In this document: piece after piece, positions 7,020 through 19,352 of the stretch
Layout: each line of letters opens with the position of its first letter
Numbering within the stretch: the first letter of the stretch is position 1
From: Candidatus Neomarinimicrobiota bacterium
GTDB lineage: Bacteria; Fidelibacterota; UBA8477; JABMPR01
Length of the DNA: 36,523 nucleotides
Reading direction: 5' to 3'
Assembly: GCA_034716895.1 (NCBI GenBank)
Contig: JAYEKW010000125.1
Span: 1-36,523 of the forward strand
Program-made: the position numbers and the translations under genes
The notes under the pieces: model-generated
Databases searched by the model: none
Told to the model about the DNA's origin: nothing
Seen by the model: the letters and a program-made list of their open reading frames with translations, nothing else

Positions 7020-8063
7020 TTACCTCAGGGCTAATCCAATAGCAGTTGAAAACTGATAGGCGTTTGAGGTGGTGATCTCCATATCCGGAAAATGTTCTGG
7101 GATAGGATCCCATATCTCGGCTGGAATTTCCATAATATCTTCGGAAAGTGTTATAAAGGAACGGATAAATGAATCATTGAGCAGACCACCGGTGACATAC
7201 AGTTTTTCAGTTTTTTGTCCAGTGTTGTAAAAATGGCGGAAATTCAGTTTTCGGATAGTCAATGCAAGTTCTTTAAGTTGATTTTCAATTTTCGGGTTTT
7301 GCATATAAAGAGTGGTGATGGGATCCCCATTCGAGCTTAACTCAAGTACGCCCCGTCGAAGATATTCCACTTCAACAAACGGAATACCTGCAACTTTTGA
7401 GATGGTGCGATTTAAGGTGTTTCCTCCAAAGGGGAGATACAAGAATTCCGGATGTTGAGCCGGGTCAACAATAGTATAGTGAGAGCTGTTACCACCAAGC
7501 TGTAAAATACCAATGGTCTCTGACATCTTAGGATTCGAACGATAAAACAGGTCAACGGTAGGAAGTGTGCTGGTCTCCAGGAGCTTCAAACTGGTTGAAA
7601 GCGATTTGAATACCTTCTGCAGCCATTCGATTCGGTTCTTCTTTATGACAGCCAGGAGAATATTGATCTTCTTCTTTTGATTCTGGGGAAGCAGCGCATA
7701 GTCAAAATCATATTGATCAGCCGGGTCTGCTAATAGTGGAGCAAGCTCCCAAAAAAGGGCTTGTTTTATCTCATGGGAAGCGATCTGGGGGAGTTGTAGA
7801 AAAAATAGATTCTGATAGGACGAACTCAAGCCAACGTTTATGTCAGCTCGTCGGTAAGGTGTTTCCGAGAGCAGGCTTTTGATGCCGTTCATGATGTGAG
7901 TTTCATTAACCTCACGAATATCCTTTACCACATCTTCTTCCAAAAAGTCATACTTAAGTAATTGTGATTGGTTCCGGTTTTTCTTTTTTACATAGTAGCA
8001 GGCCAGCTTAATGGAGTTGTTACCAATATCGATACCAATCTTGATTTTTTTTTGTTTACTCAT
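7020..8063 (-). CDS. pilM: Type IV pilus actin-like ATPase PilM
   Basis: This 347-residue cytoplasmic protein of the actin/FtsA fold has the phosphate-1 loop 'IGIDIGNNSIKLA' at residues 9-21. Later it has 'IGILQLGGNSSHYTIVD', the second phosphate loop, and a C-terminal 'LYVTGGLLND' adenosine loop. PilM forms a ring under the inner membrane and binds the PilN N-terminus. The start codon at 8063 has no convincing Shine-Dalgarno sequence, but no better in-frame start is visible. It is the first gene of the pilMNOPQ operon and is preceded by a 431-nt spacer. Confidence 0.92.
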   Translation of the reverse strand: MSKQKKIKIGIDIGNNSIKLACYYVKKKNRNQSQLLKYDFLEEDVVKDIREVNETHIMNGIKSLLSETPYRRADINVGLSSSYQNLFFLQLPQIASHEIKQALFWELAPLLADPADQYDFDYALLPQNQKKKINILLAVIKKNRIEWLQKVFKSLSTSLKLLETSTLPTVDLFYRSNPKMSETIGILQLGGNSSHYTIVDPAQHPEFLYLPFGGNTLNRTISKVAGIPFVEVEYLRRGVLELSSNGDPITTLYMQNPKIENQLKELALTIRKLNFRHFYNTGQKTEKLYVTGGLLNDSFIRSFITLSEDIMEIPAEIWDPIPEHFPDMEITTSNAYQFSTAIGLALR

Positions 8064-8494: not shown

Positions 8495-8911
8495 TCAAAT
8501 CTCGCCAGTAAGGGTACCGGACTGGTTTAATGTTCGTACAGAATTAGGAGTTGACCCAGATTTACAGGTTATGGTGAAACTTGATCCATCGGTACACAGG
8601 TAAGTATAGGAGGAGTCTGAAAAATATTTACCACTGATCTCACCATGCTGCATGTCATTCCAGGTTGCACCCACCACAAAGCTAGCAGGGTTGGTGATGG
8701 GATAGTTACCATGCTTGCTGGAATAGACTCGTAGCTGTGTTCTTATGCTGCAGAGGTTAGCATCTGCTTCACATAGTCGTGCCTTATTGGTATTGCCGTT
8801 GTAGATCGGAATAGTTACAGCAGCCAATCCACCAATGAGAAAAAATATAATCATTAGCTCTAGCAGAGAAAACCCGATCAAGTCGTATATTTTTCTGAAT
8901 AAGTCTCCCAT
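8495..8911 (-). CDS. Type IV pilin, divergent paralogue with four cysteines
   Basis: This 138-residue prepilin has a 13-residue leader ending in Gly, then 'FSLLELMI' with Glu at mature position 5, so a PilD-type peptidase should cut between G13 and F14. The hydrophobic helix is altered compared with the two sister pilins ('IFFLIGGLAAVTIPIY'). The globular part shares the family pattern 'VGATWND...GKYFxDSSxTYxxTDG' and 'RTLNQSG'. It has two extra cysteines just after the helix ('RLCEADANLC') plus a C-terminal pair, four in all. AGAGGAG lies about 8 nt before the ATG. It has its own sigma-54-type promoter (8982-8995). It may be a minor or alternative subunit of the same filament. Confidence 0.9.
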   Translation of the reverse strand: MGDLFRKIYDLIGFSLLELMIIFFLIGGLAAVTIPIYNGNTNKARLCEADANLCSIRTQLRVYSSKHGNYPITNPASFVVGATWNDMQHGEISGKYFSDSSYTYLCTDGSSFTITCKSGSTPNSVRTLNQSGTLTGEI

Positions 8912-8981
8912 GTCGTATTCTCCTCTCAGTTTGATATATTCTCTCGAATTTTATCAAATAAGCATAACCACTTTTGTAGTG

Positions 8982-8995
8982 TCAAATGATATGCC
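8982..8995 (-). promoter_or_regulatory. Sigma-54-type promoter of the pilin at 8495-8911
   Basis: On the minus strand the sequence reads TGGCATATCATTTGA when the T at 8996-8995 side is included, that is TGGCAT-N5-TTGA. The -24 box matches TGGCAC but for the last base, and the -12 box is TTGA rather than TTGC. Spacing between GG and TG is the required one. Predicted transcription start is near 8970, leaving a leader of about 59 nt with a good ribosome site. Confidence 0.65.
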
Positions 8996-9115
8996 ATTTC
9001 AAAATGGTTGTTCATAAAAGCATAATAAATAACAAGATGAGTACATCTGTTTCCAAATGAGCATCTGTAAGCTATCAATAAACTGTAATTATATTATTGC
9101 ACCGTCAATATTACC

Positions 9116-9133
9116 TGTAATAATTAAAAGGCA
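9116..9133 (-). promoter_or_regulatory. Candidate activator-binding dyad (TGC-N12-ACA)
   Basis: The minus strand reads TGCCTTTTAATTATTACA, 13 of 18 positions identical to the dyad upstream of the pilin at 15047. It ends 121 bp upstream of the T of the sigma-54 -24 box. The position suits an NtrC-family enhancer site. In A/T-rich DNA a single match would mean little; the shared spacing at three promoters is the argument. Confidence 0.4.
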
Positions 9134-9496
9134 AAGTATAAAATAATATATATTATATAAAAAATATTATAGCAACTATAGGTAAAGCTTGCTTTCTGGA
9201 AAAGGATAGGGCTGTTGTCTTTCCAACTGAGGAAGTATAGATGTCGGTGATATATCCACGGTCTTATGCAGAGGTGGTGCGTAACAGGATAAACCAGATA
9301 TGACAGTTGCGGTTGTATTCCACGAGGTCAGGAGAAGAGAAGTGGATATTGTGGAATGGAGCGTTAGCAGAAAAGTAAGATAAATATGCTGCGCATTCTA
9401 AAGTGAAATTGAGATTAATTAACTTAACAGAGGTTTAGCCAGCTGTGCATAGAGGGCTATCTGTAGGATGTCTGTTACAGGGGAGTGTATCGGTTA

Positions 9497-9910
9497 TTAA
9501 AGACCACCAGCCAGGACACCAGATTGATTCAAGGTTCGTGGGGAAAGTAATTCTGATCCAGGAGCGCAGCTGATGGTAAAAGCGTATCCATCAGTGCAAT
9601 GATAAGTGTAGGAGGAGTCAGTGAAATATTTGCCGGTCATTTCGCCGGTCCTAATATCATTCCAGGTGGCACCTATTACGTAGCCGGCGGGATTAACGGT
9701 GGGGTATTCATCATGCGCGGACTGATATACCCTAAGATCGGATCTAATGCTACCCAGGTTCACATCAGCTTCACTCATCCGGGCTTTAGTGGCATTATTG
9801 CTATAAATCGGTACGGCGATAGCGGCCAGGGTGCCGATGATCACAATAACGATCATTAATTCAACCAGCGAGAAACCGGTGATATCATTTCTTATCGTCA
9901 TGTGGCTCAT
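9497..9910 (-). CDS. Type IV pilin (major-type paralogue)
   Basis: This 137-residue prepilin has a 12-residue leader ending in Gly and the mature N-terminus 'FSLVELMIVIVIIG', with Glu5. The start at 9910 is supported by GGAGG seven nt upstream. The globular domain contains 'GYVIGATWNDIRTGEMTGKY' and a C-terminal Cys pair in 'YHCTDG...TISC', likely a D-region disulphide. By eye it is about 75% identical to the pilin at 15047-15445. It lies 67 bp downstream of the PilX-like gene at 9978-10919 and no promoter is evident in between, so the two are probably co-transcribed from the sigma-54 box at 11015-11030. It is a filament subunit once processed. Confidence 0.92.
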   Translation of the reverse strand: MSHMTIRNDITGFSLVELMIVIVIIGTLAAIAVPIYSNNATKARMSEADVNLGSIRSDLRVYQSAHDEYPTVNPAGYVIGATWNDIRTGEMTGKYFTDSSYTYHCTDGYAFTISCAPGSELLSPRTLNQSGVLAGGL

Positions 9911-9977
9911 TTTTTAGCCTCCAGGAGGTTTAACGAACTCTAGAAAAGTGTCGAAGTCAGCGACTATGAAGACTTCC

Positions 9978-10919
9978 TTAGGATTGGATAGATTTCTTTG
10001 CCCACTTATTGATTCTCCAGCGACCGATCTGTTTGGGCCAATCATAGTGAGAACGCTCACCAAACCCATGAGTCCACTGGTAGTAGTCATTATTTTCAGT
10101 ATCCAGGAAATCAAAATTATTGCTCATGGAAACGATACGTCCAACGATGGGACCTGAAACAGTACCGTTCCGCAGGAAGATTGTCTGTTTACAATAAATG
10201 GCACCTAAAATAGTTTCGTTACCTGCGGGGCTATAGAGATCAAAGCTTTGCCATGGGTGGGTGAAGACCAGTGCAGGCAGAGCACCGGTTGAATCTGCTG
10301 GTGGTGCGGTTATGTAGTTATCGCCTTTAAAAAAGACCATAAAGCCGGTGAAAACCAAGGTGCTGTTATTTAGTGTAATATCTTCAATTGCAATGAAGTT
10401 GCCAGTAAATATGTGGATTCCCTCTGTAGTGAGGTCAGCAGCATCGAATGTTTTCCAGTTATCAGTATGGATCTCTACAGCATTATCATTAAAGTAGTCC
10501 ATATCAACCTGGGGTAAGAATCCAAAGCCACCACGAGCCCTGTGTTCATCACTTAGTCCGTCGTTGTTACCATCTAGATCGATACTCTCCTCGGCAGCAA
10601 TACCTCGATCAAAATGAGTATCTTCGGAAAGATCCAATAATATTTCGGATTCCATTTGAAACCTATCAACATTCACTGATAAGACCTGGGTAGTGGAATC
10701 CCAAATTGCTGTTACACCATCCGAAGAAAAATTCACCAGGGAGTCAACACCCGAATTGATCTTCCATAGAGCCTTATTAATAGAAGATTCAACAGTATAT
10801 TGCAATTTAATATTATTGACAGTTTCCATTGAAGTAGAACTGGATAAATAGGAGATATTCAGAACGGCAACACCGGTGAATGAGAATACTACAAAAACCA
10901 TAATGACTGCAACTAACAT
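9978..10919 (-). CDS. PilX-like pilus-associated protein, copy 1
   Basis: This 313-residue protein begins with the hydrophobic helix 'MLVAVIMVFVVFSFTGVAVL', resembling the mature N-terminus of PilX/GspK-type minor pilins. It shows no leader peptide or Gly-Phe-x3-Glu cleavage motif; an in-frame stop lies 12 codons upstream. The rest is predicted largely as beta strands, with repeated hydrophobic/Gly steps near the C-terminus ('ILGAIYCKQTIFLRNGTVSG') like beta-solenoid minor pilins. It has a close paralogue at 11311-12264; N- and C-terminal parts are about 80% identical, while the middle (about residues 145-205) is much more variable. The function is probably tip or priming component; this is inference from family and context. 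Confidence 0.7.
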   Translation of the reverse strand: MLVAVIMVFVVFSFTGVAVLNISYLSSSTSMETVNNIKLQYTVESSINKALWKINSGVDSLVNFSSDGVTAIWDSTTQVLSVNVDRFQMESEILLDLSEDTHFDRGIAAEESIDLDGNNDGLSDEHRARGGFGFLPQVDMDYFNDNAVEIHTDNWKTFDAADLTTEGIHIFTGNFIAIEDITLNNSTLVFTGFMVFFKGDNYITAPPADSTGALPALVFTHPWQSFDLYSPAGNETILGAIYCKQTIFLRNGTVSGPIVGRIVSMSNNFDFLDTENNDYYQWTHGFGERSHYDWPKQIGRWRINKWAKKSIQS

Positions 10920-11014
10920 GATAGATCTTCTAACTCTGCAACCACAATTGTATCAACTGTTTGCATTGTGTTTGGGCTAATTGTGATTTTAACATTCATA
11001 CTGCAGCATATATT

Positions 11015-11030
11015 TCAATATACGTGCCAA
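11015..11030 (-). promoter_or_regulatory. Sigma-54-type promoter of PilX-like copy 1
   Basis: The minus strand reads TTGGCACGTATATTGA: a perfect TTGGCAC -24 box, N5, then TTGA for the -12 box. Of the four boxes in the island this is one of the two with a perfect -24 element. The start of transcription should be near 11003, 84 nt before the ATG at 10919. Confidence 0.7.
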
Positions 11031-11074
11031 TGAAATAGGAAATTTATAAAACAATAAAATACAATATGTTATAC

Positions 11075-11092
11075 TGTTCCATAAATAAGACA
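11075..11092 (-). promoter_or_regulatory. Weak candidate activator dyad (CTGT-N12-ACAG)
   Basis: The minus strand reads TGTCTTATTTATGGAACA, flanked by C/G that extend the dyad to CTGT-N12-ACAG. It resembles the dyads of the other three units in its T-rich core, but it lies only 46 bp from the -24 box, so its role is doubtful. Confidence 0.25.
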
Positions 11093-11250
11093 GTGCCTGA
11101 AATAGAAGCATTCCGTAAATTTTATATTACATATGCGATTGCATGGGTAGTATATATAAGACAGGTATTGATTATTGGTTGATACGAATATTTATATTAC
11201 GCAGCTAAGATAAATATATATAAGTAGATAGCGGAAATTATTCTACATTG

Positions 11251-11282
11251 TAAAAGAACCTCATTGCTGTGAGGTTCTTTTA
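11251..11282 (-). terminator. Intrinsic terminator after PilX-like copy 2
   Basis: A perfect 13-bp stem (11251-11263 with 11270-11282) encloses a 6-nt loop. On the minus strand the right arm ends in TTCTTTTA, giving a U-rich tail. It begins 28 bp after the stop of the gene at 11311-12264 and closes the pilW-peptidase-pilX unit, separating it from the next sigma-54 promoter. The A-rich left arm could make it work in both directions. Confidence 0.8.
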
Positions 11283-11310
11283 CTTGATCAAATGTGGTAT
11301 TCTGGTATTA

Positions 11311-12264
11311 TTAGGTTTGCAGCTGTTTCTTGATCCACTTCTGAATTCTCCAGCGACCGATCTGCTTAGGCCAATCATAATGATGACGATGACCAAATCC
11401 ACGAGTCCACTGGAAGTAATCGTTATTTTCGGTGTCAAGAAAATCAAAGTTTTCACTCATGGAGACAATCCGTCCAACGATGGGACCTGAAAAGTTACCA
11501 TTTTGAAGATAGATGGTGTTTTTGCAGTAGATAGCACCAAGGATTGTCTCATTCCCATAAGGGCTGACTAGATTCAGAGTTTGCCAAGGGTGAGTGAGTA
11601 CCAGAGCAGGTAAAGCTCCAGTTGAATCTGCTGGAGGAGCAGTGAAATGATTCTCGTCCCAGATCCTGATATGGTGCCCTGTCAATACAATGGTTCCGGA
11701 GTTAAGGATAACATCTTCCAGCGTTACATAATTACCTTCAAAAATATGAATTCCATCAGCAAGGGTCATGTTAGCAAATGATACACCACTGTACCATGAA
11801 CCACTCTCCGTGTGAACTTCCACAGCATTCTCGTAAAAATATTCCATATCCACTTCCGGTAAGAATCCGAATCTGCCTCTAGCTCTGTGATCGTCACTTA
11901 GGCCTGTAATATTTCCATCGAGATACACTTCTTCTTGGGCGGCAATACCACGATCAAAGTGGGTATCCTCAGAGAGGTCAAGCAGAATCTCCGATTCCAT
12001 CTGAAATTTATCAACATTTACAGAAAGTACTTGCGTACTGGAATCCCAGACGGTGGTGATTCCACCAGAGCTGTAGTTAACTAATGAATCGGCACCACTA
12101 TTGATTCGCCACAATGATTCATTGACAGCGGATTCAACAGCGTATTGTAACTTAATGTTATTAATCGTCTCCATTGAAGAAGAGCTGGATAAGTAGGAAA
12201 CATTCAACACAGCTACTCCGGTAAAAGAGAAGACCACAAATACCATAATTACTGCGACTAACAT
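11311..12264 (-). CDS. PilX-like pilus-associated protein, copy 2
   Basis: This 317-residue paralogue of the protein at 9978-10919 starts with the same 'MLVAVIMVFVVFSFTGVAVL' helix. The ATG at 12264 is chosen because GGGG lies 7 nt upstream and both copies then start at the same residue; a TTG five codons earlier is possible. The segments 'ILLDLSEDTHFDRGIAA', 'APPADSTGALPALV' and 'SGPIVGRIVSMS' are the same in both copies, while the centre differs in sequence and length. It starts 4 nt after the peptidase-homologue stop, in one operon with that gene and the PilW-like pilin. Probably a minor pilin or filament-associated protein in the periplasm or outside; the exact role is unknown. Confidence 0.7.
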   Translation of the reverse strand: MLVAVIMVFVVFSFTGVAVLNVSYLSSSSSMETINNIKLQYAVESAVNESLWRINSGADSLVNYSSGGITTVWDSSTQVLSVNVDKFQMESEILLDLSEDTHFDRGIAAQEEVYLDGNITGLSDDHRARGRFGFLPEVDMEYFYENAVEVHTESGSWYSGVSFANMTLADGIHIFEGNYVTLEDVILNSGTIVLTGHHIRIWDENHFTAPPADSTGALPALVLTHPWQTLNLVSPYGNETILGAIYCKNTIYLQNGNFSGPIVGRIVSMSENFDFLDTENNDYFQWTRGFGHRHHYDWPKQIGRWRIQKWIKKQLQT

Positions 12265-12268
12265 TTTA

Positions 12269-13039
12269 TTACCCCACAATCGTTGACTGATAAAAGGTTA
12301 ATATTTCTTGTCCCCATAAAAGAGCAATCAAGCCCGCAGCAGCCATGAGTTCACTAAACTGCGGCATAGCTTCGTCAGAACGCTTATTAAAATATTTTAC
12401 ATTAATGCTGCCAATTACTGCACCACCCGCTAAAGCAAAGAAAAGAGCAATTAATCCGAGTTCCATTCCAAGGAAAAGGCCAAGCAAGGCACCCAGCTTG
12501 ATCTCGGTCAATTCAAAAGTGCTGTCGTCCGTTGCGAAAATTTTCACAAGGTTATACAAAGCCAATGCAGCAATACCGAGAAGCATACTGATTGCTGCTT
12601 CAGGGAAACGGTCAGGATTATAAGCCAGGAAATGTATCACTGCCAGCATACCCATAATCATGAGAAGACTATCGTGTATTTCACGTTTTTCTTTTATAAG
12701 GAAGATTATACCAATAAGAGCCATTCCGTAGAGCATGGCCATTGAGCCCTCAAAACTCCATCCGAATTTCCAGATATAAAATGCAACCCACGCGAATTCA
12801 AGAAAATCAACCAGGAGTTTACGGATGGGCAGGGTTGCATTACAATAAGGACATTTACCGCGGTTCCGAAAATAACTCCAGAAGGGTAACATGTCATTCC
12901 ATGACAGTTTAGTAGCGCAAGATGGACAGTAGGGAGTCGGAGTAGAATAGTTACGCTTTTTAGGAGTTTGGTCAATCGTGTTATTACTGAGAATAGCAAA
13001 AACGCAGCCGAGGATAATAATACCGAAAAGGTTTAACAT
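12269..13039 (-). CDS. Prepilin-peptidase homologue with both catalytic Asp positions changed
   Basis: This 256-residue polytopic membrane protein has the PilD plan. The N-terminal zinc-finger domain has CxxC pairs C38/C41 and C63/C66 around 'LPFWSYFRNRGKCPYC', and an A24-type peptidase domain follows. In active PilD the first catalytic Asp lies in 'LIDxxxxxLPD'; here the aligned segment is 'LIKEKREIHD', with Lys at 116. The second lies in 'GxGDxKLxAxxG'; here it is 'ELTEIKLGALLG', with Glu at 179. The 'GSFLNVVIxR' N-terminal motif is also lost. Fold and context are clear, but proteolysis looks unlikely, so a working PilD should be elsewhere. It might chaperone, methylate or bind prepilins; that is speculation. 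It lies 3 bp downstream of the PilW-like gene. Confidence 0.75.
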   Translation of the reverse strand: MLNLFGIIILGCVFAILSNNTIDQTPKKRNYSTPTPYCPSCATKLSWNDMLPFWSYFRNRGKCPYCNATLPIRKLLVDFLEFAWVAFYIWKFGWSFEGSMAMLYGMALIGIIFLIKEKREIHDSLLMIMGMLAVIHFLAYNPDRFPEAAISMLLGIAALALYNLVKIFATDDSTFELTEIKLGALLGLFLGMELGLIALFFALAGGAVIGSINVKYFNKRSDEAMPQFSELMAAAGLIALLWGQEILTFYQSTIVG

Positions 13040-13042
13040 CTC

Positions 13043-13561
13043 CTAATTCCTCAAAGTAATTGACCACTCACAGGCGAGGGTATCGCCGGCGGAGCTCAAA
13101 TTCATGCTGAGGTTTAATAATTTGCTGTGATTACCATTGCGCTCTGTGAAAACCAGTTCAGATACTTCGCAGTCTACAGGAGTATGAGTAGTCGAATCGA
13201 TCATCCATTGCAGTGAGCCACCGGTGATGCCCAAGTGATAAACTGTCGAGTCAGCATCTACAGATCTAAGGATACTTCCAGTTGTACTTGTTGTTGAACT
13301 GGCTTCAGCTGCTGCATCAACGAAAATCTGCATTGAGTCGCTGACGGTAGTCGTAAGCTTGGTACGAACGTATCTATCTATTAGAACTTGATCGTAGCCT
13401 AGACCAACTCTGACATTTGTTTGAGTCAGTTGTGAACGGCTGAAAACGATGACTGAACCAAATCCCATGATCAAGATCATGCTGGCAGTCATAGCAGAAA
13501 TAAGTTCAACCAAAGTAAAGCCTCGGCTGTGTGACCAAGTAGACCTGGTCTGATTTCGCAT
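13043..13561 (-). CDS. PilW/GspJ-like minor prepilin
   Basis: This prepilin has a basic leader ending 'SHSRG', then 'FTLVELISAMTASMILIMGF', with Glu5. A start at 13561 (172 residues) is preferred over a GTG at 13585, because the latter lies only about 2 nt from the predicted sigma-54 transcription start. The rest is a Ser/Thr-rich globular domain with a C-terminal pair of cysteines ('VDCEVS', 'LACEWS'). By size, leader and neighbours it resembles PilW/GspJ minor pseudopilins that prime filament assembly. It is the first gene of the unit pilW-peptidase homologue-pilX. Confidence 0.8.
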   Translation of the reverse strand: MRNQTRSTWSHSRGFTLVELISAMTASMILIMGFGSVIVFSRSQLTQTNVRVGLGYDQVLIDRYVRTKLTTTVSDSMQIFVDAAAEASSTTSTTGSILRSVDADSTVYHLGITGGSLQWMIDSTTHTPVDCEVSELVFTERNGNHSKLLNLSMNLSSAGDTLACEWSITLRN

Positions 13562-13598
13562 TTGTGTTTGTCCGATTCTCATCACGAACCATATAGAG

Positions 13599-14581: not shown

Positions 14582-15001
14582 TCAGTAGGTCCAACTGCGC
14601 TCTTCAGAAAAACTGCAACTTAAGCTATCCGTCACGTTATCTGCACTAAACCAGGCAAAAGAAATTGTGACATCCAGATAATCTGGGATCGAGGTATCTG
14701 CAGGAGCAAGTCCGTCAGAAGTGTCATCTATCCCCGTGACAAATGTAGAACGGTACCCCTGAATCCCATTGAGGGTCAGGGGTACCGAAGATTCTGGTAA
14801 ACTGTCTTGAAGTGATTCGTAACCTAGGTCAATGGCCTTTTCCATGCGTGAAGCCATGTTGGCATAAGCGAGTTGAGAGCGAATACCTCTTTCGATCTCA
14901 AAGCGACTCACTGTGTAATACTGAGCAGTGCCTAGTACAATTATAGCAAGTAATGTGGCAGAGATCAGTACTTCAACGAGAGTGTAGCCCTGGTTATTCA
15001 T
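14582..15001 (-). CDS. PilV/GspI-like minor prepilin
   Basis: This 139-residue prepilin has the very short leader 'MNNQG' and the mature start 'YTLVEVLISATLLAIIVLG'. Tyr replaces Phe at position 1 and Glu5 is kept. A TTG three codons upstream is an alternative start. 'LISATLLAI' is typical of PilV/GspI-type minor pilins, and the size agrees. It lies 45 nt downstream of the major-type pilin at 15047 and is most likely in the same transcript. No terminator is obvious behind it. Confidence 0.8.
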   Translation of the reverse strand: MNNQGYTLVEVLISATLLAIIVLGTAQYYTVSRFEIERGIRSQLAYANMASRMEKAIDLGYESLQDSLPESSVPLTLNGIQGYRSTFVTGIDDTSDGLAPADTSIPDYLDVTISFAWFSADNVTDSLSCSFSEERSWTY

Positions 15002-15046
15002 TTGCTTCAAAGAACCTATTGCCAGATAATTAACCTGATCTACCGT

Positions 15047-15445
15047 TTACTCTAAACCACCAGCAAGTGTTCCGGCCTGGTTCAGGGTACGGTCTGATCT
15101 AAGGATGTCGCCAGCGGCACATGTAATCGTATAGTTGGAACCATCAGTGCTGAGATAGGTAAAAGAAGAATCAGTAAAATATTTACCAGTGATCTCACCA
15201 GTTCTGATATCATTCCAGGTAGCTCCAATAACATAACCGGCAGGACTTACTGTTGGATACTCACCATTCTCACCATAAAAAACACGAAGCTGGGTCCGAA
15301 TGCTACCAAGTGAAGCATCAGATTCACTCATTTTAGCTTTAGTAACATTATTATTGTAGATCGGCACAGCAACGGCAGCCAATACACCAATAATTACAAT
15401 TACGATCATTAACTCAACTAACGAAAAACCACTATTCTTTCTCAT
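15047..15445 (-). CDS. pilA: Type IV pilin, probable main subunit
   Basis: The start at 15445 is fixed by GAGGAGG about 8 nt upstream; a longer frame to 15526 has no such signal. The 132-residue prepilin has the 6-residue leader MRKNSG, a classical class-III leader, then 'FSLVELMIVIVIIGVLAAVA' with Glu5. The globular domain shares 'GYVIGATWNDIRTGEITGKY' with its sister at 9497-9910. It holds only one cysteine ('YTITC'), so the disulphide of the sister pilins cannot form within the subunit. The best leader, best ribosome site and a strong sigma-54 box make it the likeliest major pilin; which copy dominates is inference. Confidence 0.9.
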   Translation of the reverse strand: MRKNSGFSLVELMIVIVIIGVLAAVAVPIYNNNVTKAKMSESDASLGSIRTQLRVFYGENGEYPTVSPAGYVIGATWNDIRTGEITGKYFTDSSFTYLSTDGSNYTITCAAGDILRSDRTLNQAGTLAGGLE

Positions 15446-15542
15446 TTTAGTATCCTCCTCTAGGATGTTTGTTTCAATGTCTTTAAACATTTTTTTGTTA
15501 ATTTGTGTTAAATATTCTGTTCTCATAACGGCTGCAGTAGTT

Positions 15543-16518: not shown

Positions 16519-17742
16519 CTAATGAATGGCTGAGCTCATCTGGAATATGGGTAAATAAAGGGTTACAATGATGATACTGACGACCACGCCCAATCCACCC
16601 ATAACAATTGGTTCAATAGTTTTTGAAAGTTTATCGACTGCAGTATTAAAATCAGCTTCATGAAATTCAGATATCTTTTCCAGCATGATGGCCATTGCAC
16701 CTGATTTTTCACCAACTCCTATCATCGAACTAACCATAATTGGAAAAACATCATCGTATTTTGCCAATTGCCCACCCAAGCTGCGGCCGTGAGCAACCTG
16801 TGTGGAAACATTTTCACAGATCTCTTTTATATAAACATTATCTGATGTATCACCTGCAATTTTCAGTGCGGTGATGATTGAAACTTCAGCCCGAATTAAA
16901 ACTGATAAAGTTTTGGCAAACCTTGCGATCAATGATTTATGTATGATATGACCGGCAACGGGAGTTTTAAAGATGTGTTTATCAATGAAATATCTGCCCT
17001 TTGTCGAGGTCTTGAAAGCCCTGAAGCCTATCCATAAACCTCCACCAATAATTGCTTCCAGTATTATGTGGGTGCTCATGAATTCACTGATGTTAATCAT
17101 CACTTGAGTGGATGCAGGAAGCTCAGCACCAAAACTGTCGAAAATATCAGCAAATTTTGGCATAAGCCCAAACATAACACCTGCCAATACTACTCCGAAG
17201 AAACCGGCAATGAATTTTGGATAACTGACTGCTGAGCTAAGACGCTTACGAACATCATCTTCTTTTTCAATGTATATGGCTATCTGACTAAGGATCTGAT
17301 CCAGACCACCACCCATTTCCGCAGCATTTACCATGGAGATGACGAAACCGGGAAAAATATTTCGGTGTTCAGATAATGCCTCTGAAAAGGGATGCCCTGC
17401 TTTAACAAATATTAGAATCTCACCCAGAGCATTTTTGAAATTTTTATCTTCAAATTGGAGTTGTACAATAGAAATGGCATCAACCAGTTGAATTCCAGCA
17501 TCCAGCAACGTAGACAGCTCTCTGAAAAAGATGACCTTAAGTGTGGGGTCAACCTTGGGCGGTGTGAGGTTTATCTCACTGAGTTTCCAAGAGCGCTTCT
17601 TTCGACGTACAGGTTCAACACTAACCGGTCTGAGACCCATCTTGCGCAACTCTGCACTGACTTCCTCCCTGGTGAAGCCGCCTAGAGTGCCCTCGCGACG
17701 TTTACCCTTTTCATCAACGGCTATGTATCGAAAATTTCCCAT
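16519..17742 (-). CDS. pilC: Type IV pilus platform protein PilC
   Basis: This 407-residue inner-membrane protein of the GspF/PilC family has two T2SSF domains (about residues 70-195 and 272-395), each with 'LSxLLxAG'-like and 'GExSG'-like elements ('LSTLLDAGIQLVDAI', 'GVGEKSGAMAIMLEKI'), and three expected membrane helices. It converts PilB rotation into pilin insertion. The N-terminus 'FRYIAVDEKGKRREG' is standard. It begins 5 nt after the pilB stop. The C-terminus ends just after 'TLYLPIFQMSSAI', as expected for the full family length. Confidence 0.93.
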   Translation of the reverse strand: MGNFRYIAVDEKGKRREGTLGGFTREEVSAELRKMGLRPVSVEPVRRKKRSWKLSEINLTPPKVDPTLKVIFFRELSTLLDAGIQLVDAISIVQLQFEDKNFKNALGEILIFVKAGHPFSEALSEHRNIFPGFVISMVNAAEMGGGLDQILSQIAIYIEKEDDVRKRLSSAVSYPKFIAGFFGVVLAGVMFGLMPKFADIFDSFGAELPASTQVMINISEFMSTHIILEAIIGGGLWIGFRAFKTSTKGRYFIDKHIFKTPVAGHIIHKSLIARFAKTLSVLIRAEVSIITALKIAGDTSDNVYIKEICENVSTQVAHGRSLGGQLAKYDDVFPIMVSSMIGVGEKSGAMAIMLEKISEFHEADFNTAVDKLSKTIEPIVMGGLGVVVSIIIVTLYLPIFQMSSAIH

Positions 17743-17747
17743 ATTTG

Positions 17748-19352
17748 CTAGGCTACCCTGATAATCTCATCCAAAGTGGTTAGGCCACGACGAGCTCGAT
17801 CAAGCCCCTCGTGAAAAACTGATAATGTTCCAGCTTCCTCTGCTGCCTTGCGTATCTCTGCTTCAGAAGCATCATTAATTATAAGCTCCTTTATAGTTGC
17901 ATCCATAAACAAAATTTCGTGTATACCAAAACGCCCCCAATATCCAGAGCCGGAACACTGTTTGCAACCCTTTCCCTTATAATATGTGTCTTTCGAAATA
18001 TCAATATTATGTCGATTCAAAAAAAGTTTAATATCTATTGAGGGTTCGACAGGTACCCGACAATTCGTGCAGACCCTTCTTACCAGGCGCTGAGCGACAA
18101 TGACTGAAATTGAAGAAACAATCAAGTACTTATCAATGCCCATATTTATCAGGCGAATGATAGTTGCTACTGAACTATTTGTATGAAGGGTACTGAGGAC
18201 AAGGTGTCCAGTGAGAGCCGCCTTAATGGCGATCTCCGCCGTTTCCAGATCACGAATTTCACCAACCATGACAATATCTGGATCCTGCCGGAGAATTGAA
18301 CGTAGTGCTGAAGCGAAGGTTAAACCTACTCCCGGTCGAGCTTGAACCTGGTTGATTCCAGAAAGCCGGTACTCTACCGGATCTTCAACAGTAATGATAT
18401 TTAACTGCGGGCTATTAACAAAATTGAGAATTGAGTAAAGGGTGGTAGTTTTACCTGACCCTGTAGGTCCGGTCACCAGGATCATGCCTGTAGATGCTCT
18501 GGCTTTTTCCTTTAGCTGGTTAAGCTTTTTCTCGGGGAAGCCAAGGTCATCAATATTCAGGGAGATAGAACCCTGATCCAAAATACGCATAACGATCTTT
18601 TCCCCGTATATACCAGGGATGGTAGAGCACCTTACATCAACGCTACGCCCCATGATCTTAAATTTTACACGACCATCCTGGGGTACCCGTCGTTCTGCAA
18701 TGTCAAGATCGGCCAATATCTTGATACGTGCGATCACACCAGACTGCAACCGACGATTTGCCGGTGGGAACTCTCTTAACATGCCATCAATTCTAAGCCG
18801 GATTCTGAGATTATTTTCCTGAGGTTCAATGTGAATATCACTGGCTCGCTCTTGAATAGCCTGAACCAGGAGTGAGTTGACAAATACAACAGCCGGAGCA
18901 TCAGTGGCTTGCGTTCGCAGGATATCGATGCTGTCTTCATCGATTTCTTCCTCTTCTTCCAACTCATCCTCTACTTCAACCAGATCTTGTAGAGTGTCTT
19001 CAAAAGCATTTTTATCTGAGAAAATCGTTCCGATGGCAAATTCAATGTCATCCGGATCAGCCCAGACCGTTGTGACCTCCTTCTGGATCTTGCTTCGAAT
19101 GATCTGAAGGGCTATCATATCCAGAGGATCAGCCATGGCCAGAACAACTGTACCATCTTCCAGCTCTTCCACGGGGACGAGACGATGGAATTGACATACT
19201 TCTTCCGATATCTTCAATGCTGCACTGGTGGCAAAAGAGGCGATTCCCTTAAGATTTGTCCGGCTAAGACCAAAAGTACCATAAATCTCAGTGATACCCT
19301 TGGCTTGGATAGTGCTAATACTAGGGGTTGATTCTTTTTTGACTAATTCCAT
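17748..19352 (-). CDS. pilB: Pilus extension ATPase PilB
   Basis: This 534-residue hexameric ATPase powers pilin polymerisation. It has Walker A 'GPTGSGKT' at 295-302, an Asp box around 'ILADLDIAERRVPQDGR', Walker B 'DPDIVMVGEIRD' at 357-368, a His box 'GHLVLSTLHTN', and a four-Cys zinc site C428/C431/C463/C466, a mark of PilB/GspE rather than PilT. The N-terminal MshEN-like domain is short, and a very acidic linker lies at about 126-142. Immediately upstream an in-frame 15-codon frame (19400-19353) ends with TAA that abuts this ATG. The ribosome site (GAGAAAATAA) is weak. It forms a pair with pilC. Confidence 0.93.
   Translation of the reverse strand: MELVKKESTPSISTIQAKGITEIYGTFGLSRTNLKGIASFATSAALKISEEVCQFHRLVPVEELEDGTVVLAMADPLDMIALQIIRSKIQKEVTTVWADPDDIEFAIGTIFSDKNAFEDTLQDLVEVEDELEEEEEIDEDSIDILRTQATDAPAVVFVNSLLVQAIQERASDIHIEPQENNLRIRLRIDGMLREFPPANRRLQSGVIARIKILADLDIAERRVPQDGRVKFKIMGRSVDVRCSTIPGIYGEKIVMRILDQGSISLNIDDLGFPEKKLNQLKEKARASTGMILVTGPTGSGKTTTLYSILNFVNSPQLNIITVEDPVEYRLSGINQVQARPGVGLTFASALRSILRQDPDIVMVGEIRDLETAEIAIKAALTGHLVLSTLHTNSSVATIIRLINMGIDKYLIVSSISVIVAQRLVRRVCTNCRVPVEPSIDIKLFLNRHNIDISKDTYYKGKGCKQCSGSGYWGRFGIHEILFMDATIKELIINDASEAEIRKAAEEAGTLSVFHEGLDRARRGLTTLDEIIRVA

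Follow-up and report, generated by a model that had tools for sequence, protein, structure and literature searches.

A conserved prepilin-peptidase homologue lacking both catalytic aspartates, from a type IV pilus operon of Candidatus Neomarinimicrobiota

The protein described here, which we call pseudo-PilD, is closest to the bifunctional prepilin peptidases/N-methyltransferases of the PilD/GspO type (A24A), with which it shares full-length homology, a zinc module of four cysteines with a Gly-Lys pair, a similar size and a place in a type IV pilus operon. However, both catalytic aspartates and the GxGD motif of these enzymes are missing from it, GSFLNVVIYR and FGPF are for the most part lost, and it coexists with an intact PilD. 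The short prepilin peptidases TadV, FlaK and PibD keep the two aspartates and have no zinc domain; they share with pseudo-PilD the common ancestry of the GxGD-type membrane protease core, but pseudo-PilD is their reverse, with the zinc domain kept and the aspartates absent. In PilD, N-methylation and cleavage are normally united in one protein. The zinc bound by PilD of P. aeruginosa is required for N-methylation and not for cleavage, and changes at its four cysteines affected methylation and left protease activity unaffected (PMC3584216); methylation also depends in part on a glycine and a basic residue next to the third cysteine, according to the work of Pepe and Lory as cited there. A review places N-methylation in this N-terminal domain (PMC4471445), and the role of pilin N-methylation is given as unknown (PMC3584216). 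A different kind of precedent is provided by the iRhoms, inactive rhomboid pseudoproteases which, like pseudo-PilD, are conserved relatives of a membrane protease without key catalytic residues (PMC3149277). Their fold is unrelated, and their clients belong to eukaryotic signalling, whereas the clients of pseudo-PilD are likely to be pilins. A literature search, outside of which most subscription journals lay, brought up no report of an inactive prepilin peptidase or of a pseudoenzyme of this kind, and no text on what Asp-to-Glu changes do in prepilin peptidases. To our knowledge, no pseudoenzyme of the prepilin peptidase family has been described earlier, and pseudo-PilD would be the first.

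The window, that is, the whole stretch of 36,523 nucleotides that was analysed (contig JAYEKW010000125.1, assembly GCA_034716895.1), contains a pilus locus in the order pilB-pilC, pilA, pilV-like, pilW-like, pseudo-PilD, pilX-like (two copies) and pilM-N-O-P-Q, in which the names were assigned by motif, order and homology. All genes and residues of the window that are given coordinates below lie on the minus strand. Genes for a PilC-like platform protein and a PilB-like ATPase (16519..19352, names inferred from sequence and order) are followed by those for a PilA-like major prepilin (15047..15526, assigned by motif), a PilV-like minor prepilin (14582..15010) and a PilW-like minor prepilin (13043..13585), whose leader, GFTLVEL, is normal and whose gene ends 3 bp upstream of the pseudo-PilD gene (12269..13039, 256 aa). 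The latter is separated by 3-5 bp from the pilW and pilX-like genes. Downstream of it are a leaderless PilX-like pilin (11311..12264), whose start Met falls on position +2 of the mature pilin in orthologues that have a leader, and a PilM-like protein (7020..8063), encoded by the next core gene of the operon. The open reading frame, its strand and its coordinates were correct in the preliminary description of this DNA, and the co-encoding with a PilW-like prepilin and a leaderless PilX-like protein was likewise confirmed, the leader being absent here and throughout the genus. The region 8495-12264 contains a tandem duplication of the PilX-like pilin, the second copy (9978..10919) being 72% identical to the first and also leaderless, together with additional PilA-like genes. 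In another species (G012), a transposase-like ORF (L038:18899-19351) adjoins a truncated pilQ-like ORF (18536-18877).

The relationship of pseudo-PilD to the A24 enzymes was established by profile methods. The protein matched Pfam A24_N_bact (PF06750, E 5.5e-16) and did not match Peptidase_A24 (PF01478) even at E 1, and a profile-profile alignment with canonical PilD by hhalign extended over 254 columns with probability 100 and E 1.1e-42; together with a tree in which it is nested among operon PilDs (99/98), this demonstrates common ancestry. The profile alignment is free of gaps through both catalytic sites. It places the first catalytic Asp (FIDIDH) on Ile115 (codon ATA, 12695..12697), so that the earlier assignment of this site to Lys116 was off by one and Lys116 is ruled out as the catalytic position, and the second (GxGD) on Glu179 (codon GAG, 12503..12505), as had been proposed. 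The claim that neither catalytic Asp is present stands in spite of the error. At the +2 position, where many active enzymes have Asp or Glu, pseudo-PilD has Glu117 (12689..12691), which is invariant in all 13 full-length orthologues. In place of GxGD the window reads E-L-T-E, with both glycines absent in 13/13, and of FGPF the first Phe alone is retained, while six fully conserved canonical positions of the protease core are kept. The zinc module (residues 31-75, 12815..12949) is preserved as first noted: Cys38, Cys41, Cys63 and Cys66 form a CxxC...CxxC site present in every full-length copy (13/13), and the Gly61-Lys62 pair ahead of the third cysteine is equally constant, with Gly-His in the fragmentary copy of genome G020. 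The reported loss of the N-terminal GSFLNVVI motif was borne out for the most part, since residues 15-26 (12962..12997) read AILSNNTIDQTP in place of the canonical GSFLNVVIYRxP, with Asn19, Ile22 and Pro26 retained. Thus, AILSNNTIDQ stands where canonical enzymes have GSFLNVVIYR, and most orthologues have A-I-[LI]-S-N-x-x-I-D-[RQ], in which Asn is invariant and Ile nearly so. An AlphaFold model from ten sequences was of moderate quality, reached pLDDT 77 and pTM 0.73 (pLDDT 47 with a six-sequence input) and gave no meaningful Foldseek match in the PDB and BFVD, and sequence searches of the PDB returned chance matches only; because Foldseek gave nothing meaningful, the residue mapping relies on sequence profiles.

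Among 245 genomes of the phylum, which are fragmented and incomplete, pseudo-PilD was found in 14 species from six families: the window's species, five more of its genus (70-83% identity), three in another family of the same order and five in four further families. One copy outside the genus, that of G020, is split across two contigs, hence the 13 full-length copies. None of the full-length members scored worse than E 1e-93, and the full-length matches that came after them, at 1e-38, were canonical enzymes; a search beyond the phylum with two exact patterns retrieved only relatives of the window's own genus group. Asp occurs at neither catalytic site in any of the 14 orthologues, whereas every canonical copy in the alignment carries both. 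Outside the genus, all eight copies have Glu at both sites, and in the six copies within it the first site is occupied by Ile, Thr or Leu and the second again by Glu. Residues Glu117 and Glu179 are invariant and Asp123 nearly so. When conservation of the two residues originally singled out was compared, Glu179 held throughout and Lys116 varied (Lys, Glu or Asn within the genus). Since the changes recur in 14 species, they are not due to chance or sequencing error, and on this recurrence together with the selection described below, random decay was rejected as well.

Within the window's genus, synonymous sites are saturated, so that no dN/dS can be given, and protein identity is kept at 65-82%, much as for intact PilD when the same species are compared. 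Two closer pairs gave dN/dS values of 0.04-0.09 and 0.15-0.30. Furthermore, twenty positions are invariant in the pseudo-PilD clade and rare in active enzymes, including W84, W94, Y162 and N163 in the membrane part, and wherever the locus of an orthologue is complete, its frame is open and intact. Because of the saturated synonymous sites with kept identity, the low dN/dS and the invariant positions, the comparison of sequences indicates strong purifying selection after a long stem, and the gene product is judged to be a constrained protein and not a pseudogene. Pseudo-PilD is thus a homologue in which the catalytic residues were lost and which selection has maintained, as expected of a pseudoenzyme.

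Pseudo-PilD arose from the PilD that the type IV pilus operon itself encoded. In the arrangement pilA-pilV-pilW-X-pilX-pilM, the slot X is occupied by an intact pilD in family f31 and in G043 (family f5), and by pseudo-PilD in the carriers. In two trees, the pseudo-PilD clade, itself supported at 100/100 and separated by a very long stem (~2.7 changes per site), was joined to the operon PilDs with support of 98/96 and 99/98, and a topology in which the pseudo-PilD copies grouped with the second PilDs was rejected (p-AU 1e-5). The shared slot, the grouping in the trees and the rejection of the alternative topology are the reasons for deriving the pseudo form from the operon's own enzyme.

The cutting of prepilins appears to be provided for elsewhere in the carriers. 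A search of the window's genome for a second, intact PilD found two intact A24 proteins, one with FIDIDH and GLGD (L001) and one GspO-like and next to GspF (L002), and another intact A24 protein is present in all 14 carriers. Where the operon encodes an intact PilD, this is the sole peptidase in eight of nine species (in one of the nine, G231, PilD and PilM are on different contigs), and the difference between carriers and operon-type species in having an extra peptidase gave a Fisher p of 2e-5, with relatedness ignored. The GspO-like peptidase, located at L002:1195-1962 beside the GspF-like gene, has the cysteines and both Asps and is itself without the GSFLN motif. A PilD-like protein on a contig from a viral collection (L201:950-2080) has a large insert ahead of GxGD and an altered cysteine pair (TACC).

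These results point to an unrecognised, non-cutting role in pilus building. The reading that we favour, to which we give a probability of about one half, is that pseudo-PilD is a protease-dead descendant of the operon PilD, selected for a non-cleaving job on the minor pilins of the operon; for the window's genus, the broader statement that a PilD derivative without proteolytic activity has been maintained and acts on pilins is quite probable. In such a scheme, the separate intact PilD would cut the prepilin leaders, pseudo-PilD would bind (pre)pilins through its retained membrane core, and the zinc domain would perform or position N-terminal methylation of the minor pilins, in particular of the PilX-like one, or else pseudo-PilD would dock the minor pilins for the assembly complex. 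We tentatively propose methylation as the retained chemistry: it is favoured over pure docking because the zinc module is retained, and weakened because most of GSFLNVVIYR in the same N-terminal domain is lost. The preliminary description had suggested a pseudo-enzyme dedicated to prepilins, for chaperoning, N-methylation or docking, and of this the conserved, dead-looking PilD relative with a link to minor pilins is well supported by the lack of Asp in 14 species, the intact PilD elsewhere, the operon position and the selection, whereas "dead" is a deduction, since both catalytic positions are Glu outside the genus. This is also a point against our favoured reading, as with Glu at both sites catalysis there could have been changed and not abolished. 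A protein that has the zinc domain, lacks the protease dyad and is accompanied by an intact PilD would offer a direct route to separating methylation, chaperoning and cleavage.

Alternatively, pseudo-PilD could carry out no chemistry at all and act purely as a scaffold or regulator. By binding to prepilins or to the intact PilD, for instance in a heterodimer or as a decoy, it would order the assembly of minor pilins. The close spacing to the pilW and pilX-like genes, the retained canonical core positions, the new invariant residues in the membrane part and the precedent of iRhom pseudoproteases, which act on the clients of active rhomboids (PMC3149277), are all consistent with this, but a scaffold would have no special reason for retaining four cysteines and Gly-Lys, even if a structural zinc site could explain them, and we regard it as possible yet rather unlikely. 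Gene loss bears on another explanation. Eight or more species of the genus carry pilW, most of them pilX and pilM as well, and lack the pseudo-PilD gene, of which no remnant was found in the complete locus of G011. Since these species keep their pilus genes, pseudo-PilD is not essential to the pilus machine, and such losses would also be expected if it were a functionless relic of the old operon pilD decaying towards deletion. However, the open frames, the strong purifying selection and the clade-wide new invariant residues already disfavour decay, and it is very improbable.

The possibility that pseudo-PilD is still a protease was considered as well. Glu-Glu would replace Asp-Asp outside the genus, and within it Glu117 or Asp123 would pair with Glu179, as the constancy of the double Glu in the eight outside copies, the invariance of Glu117 and Glu179 and the near-invariance of Asp123 would allow. 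Position 115 is, moreover, one of only 6 columns that are fixed outside the genus and vary freely inside it, where the PilX-like leader is gone. In contrast, the GxGD glycines are lost and FGPF is reduced, an intact peptidase is always present alongside, and bacterial and archaeal enzymes cannot do without the two aligned Asps, their other conserved Asps being dispensable (PMC2913515), so that continued proteolysis is improbable.

Outside the genus, the leader of the PilX-like pilin ends in Gly. Within the genus this leader is gone, because the start Met there aligns with mature position +2. The loss of the leader and the drift of the first-site Glu thus fall in the same genus, a coincidence for which a link is suggestive only, since there is one evolutionary event per trait. 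If they are connected, the copies outside the genus may be di-Glu proteases of the GXGD type dedicated to the PilX-like leader, so that in the genus the leader was lost, the first Glu then drifted and the gene was finally deleted in several species; we consider this more specific history a long shot. The series Asp-Asp, Glu-Glu, X-Glu and gene loss, beside the loss of the PilX leader, would nevertheless make a testable case of co-evolution. In many genomes of the genus there is a second pilV-pilW-pilX cluster (L188 (G000:C237), L187, L182 and L196), with no pilD gene within the stretches read, and its PilX-like protein also starts leaderless. In G011, a sister species, the PilX-like pilin is present in three copies.
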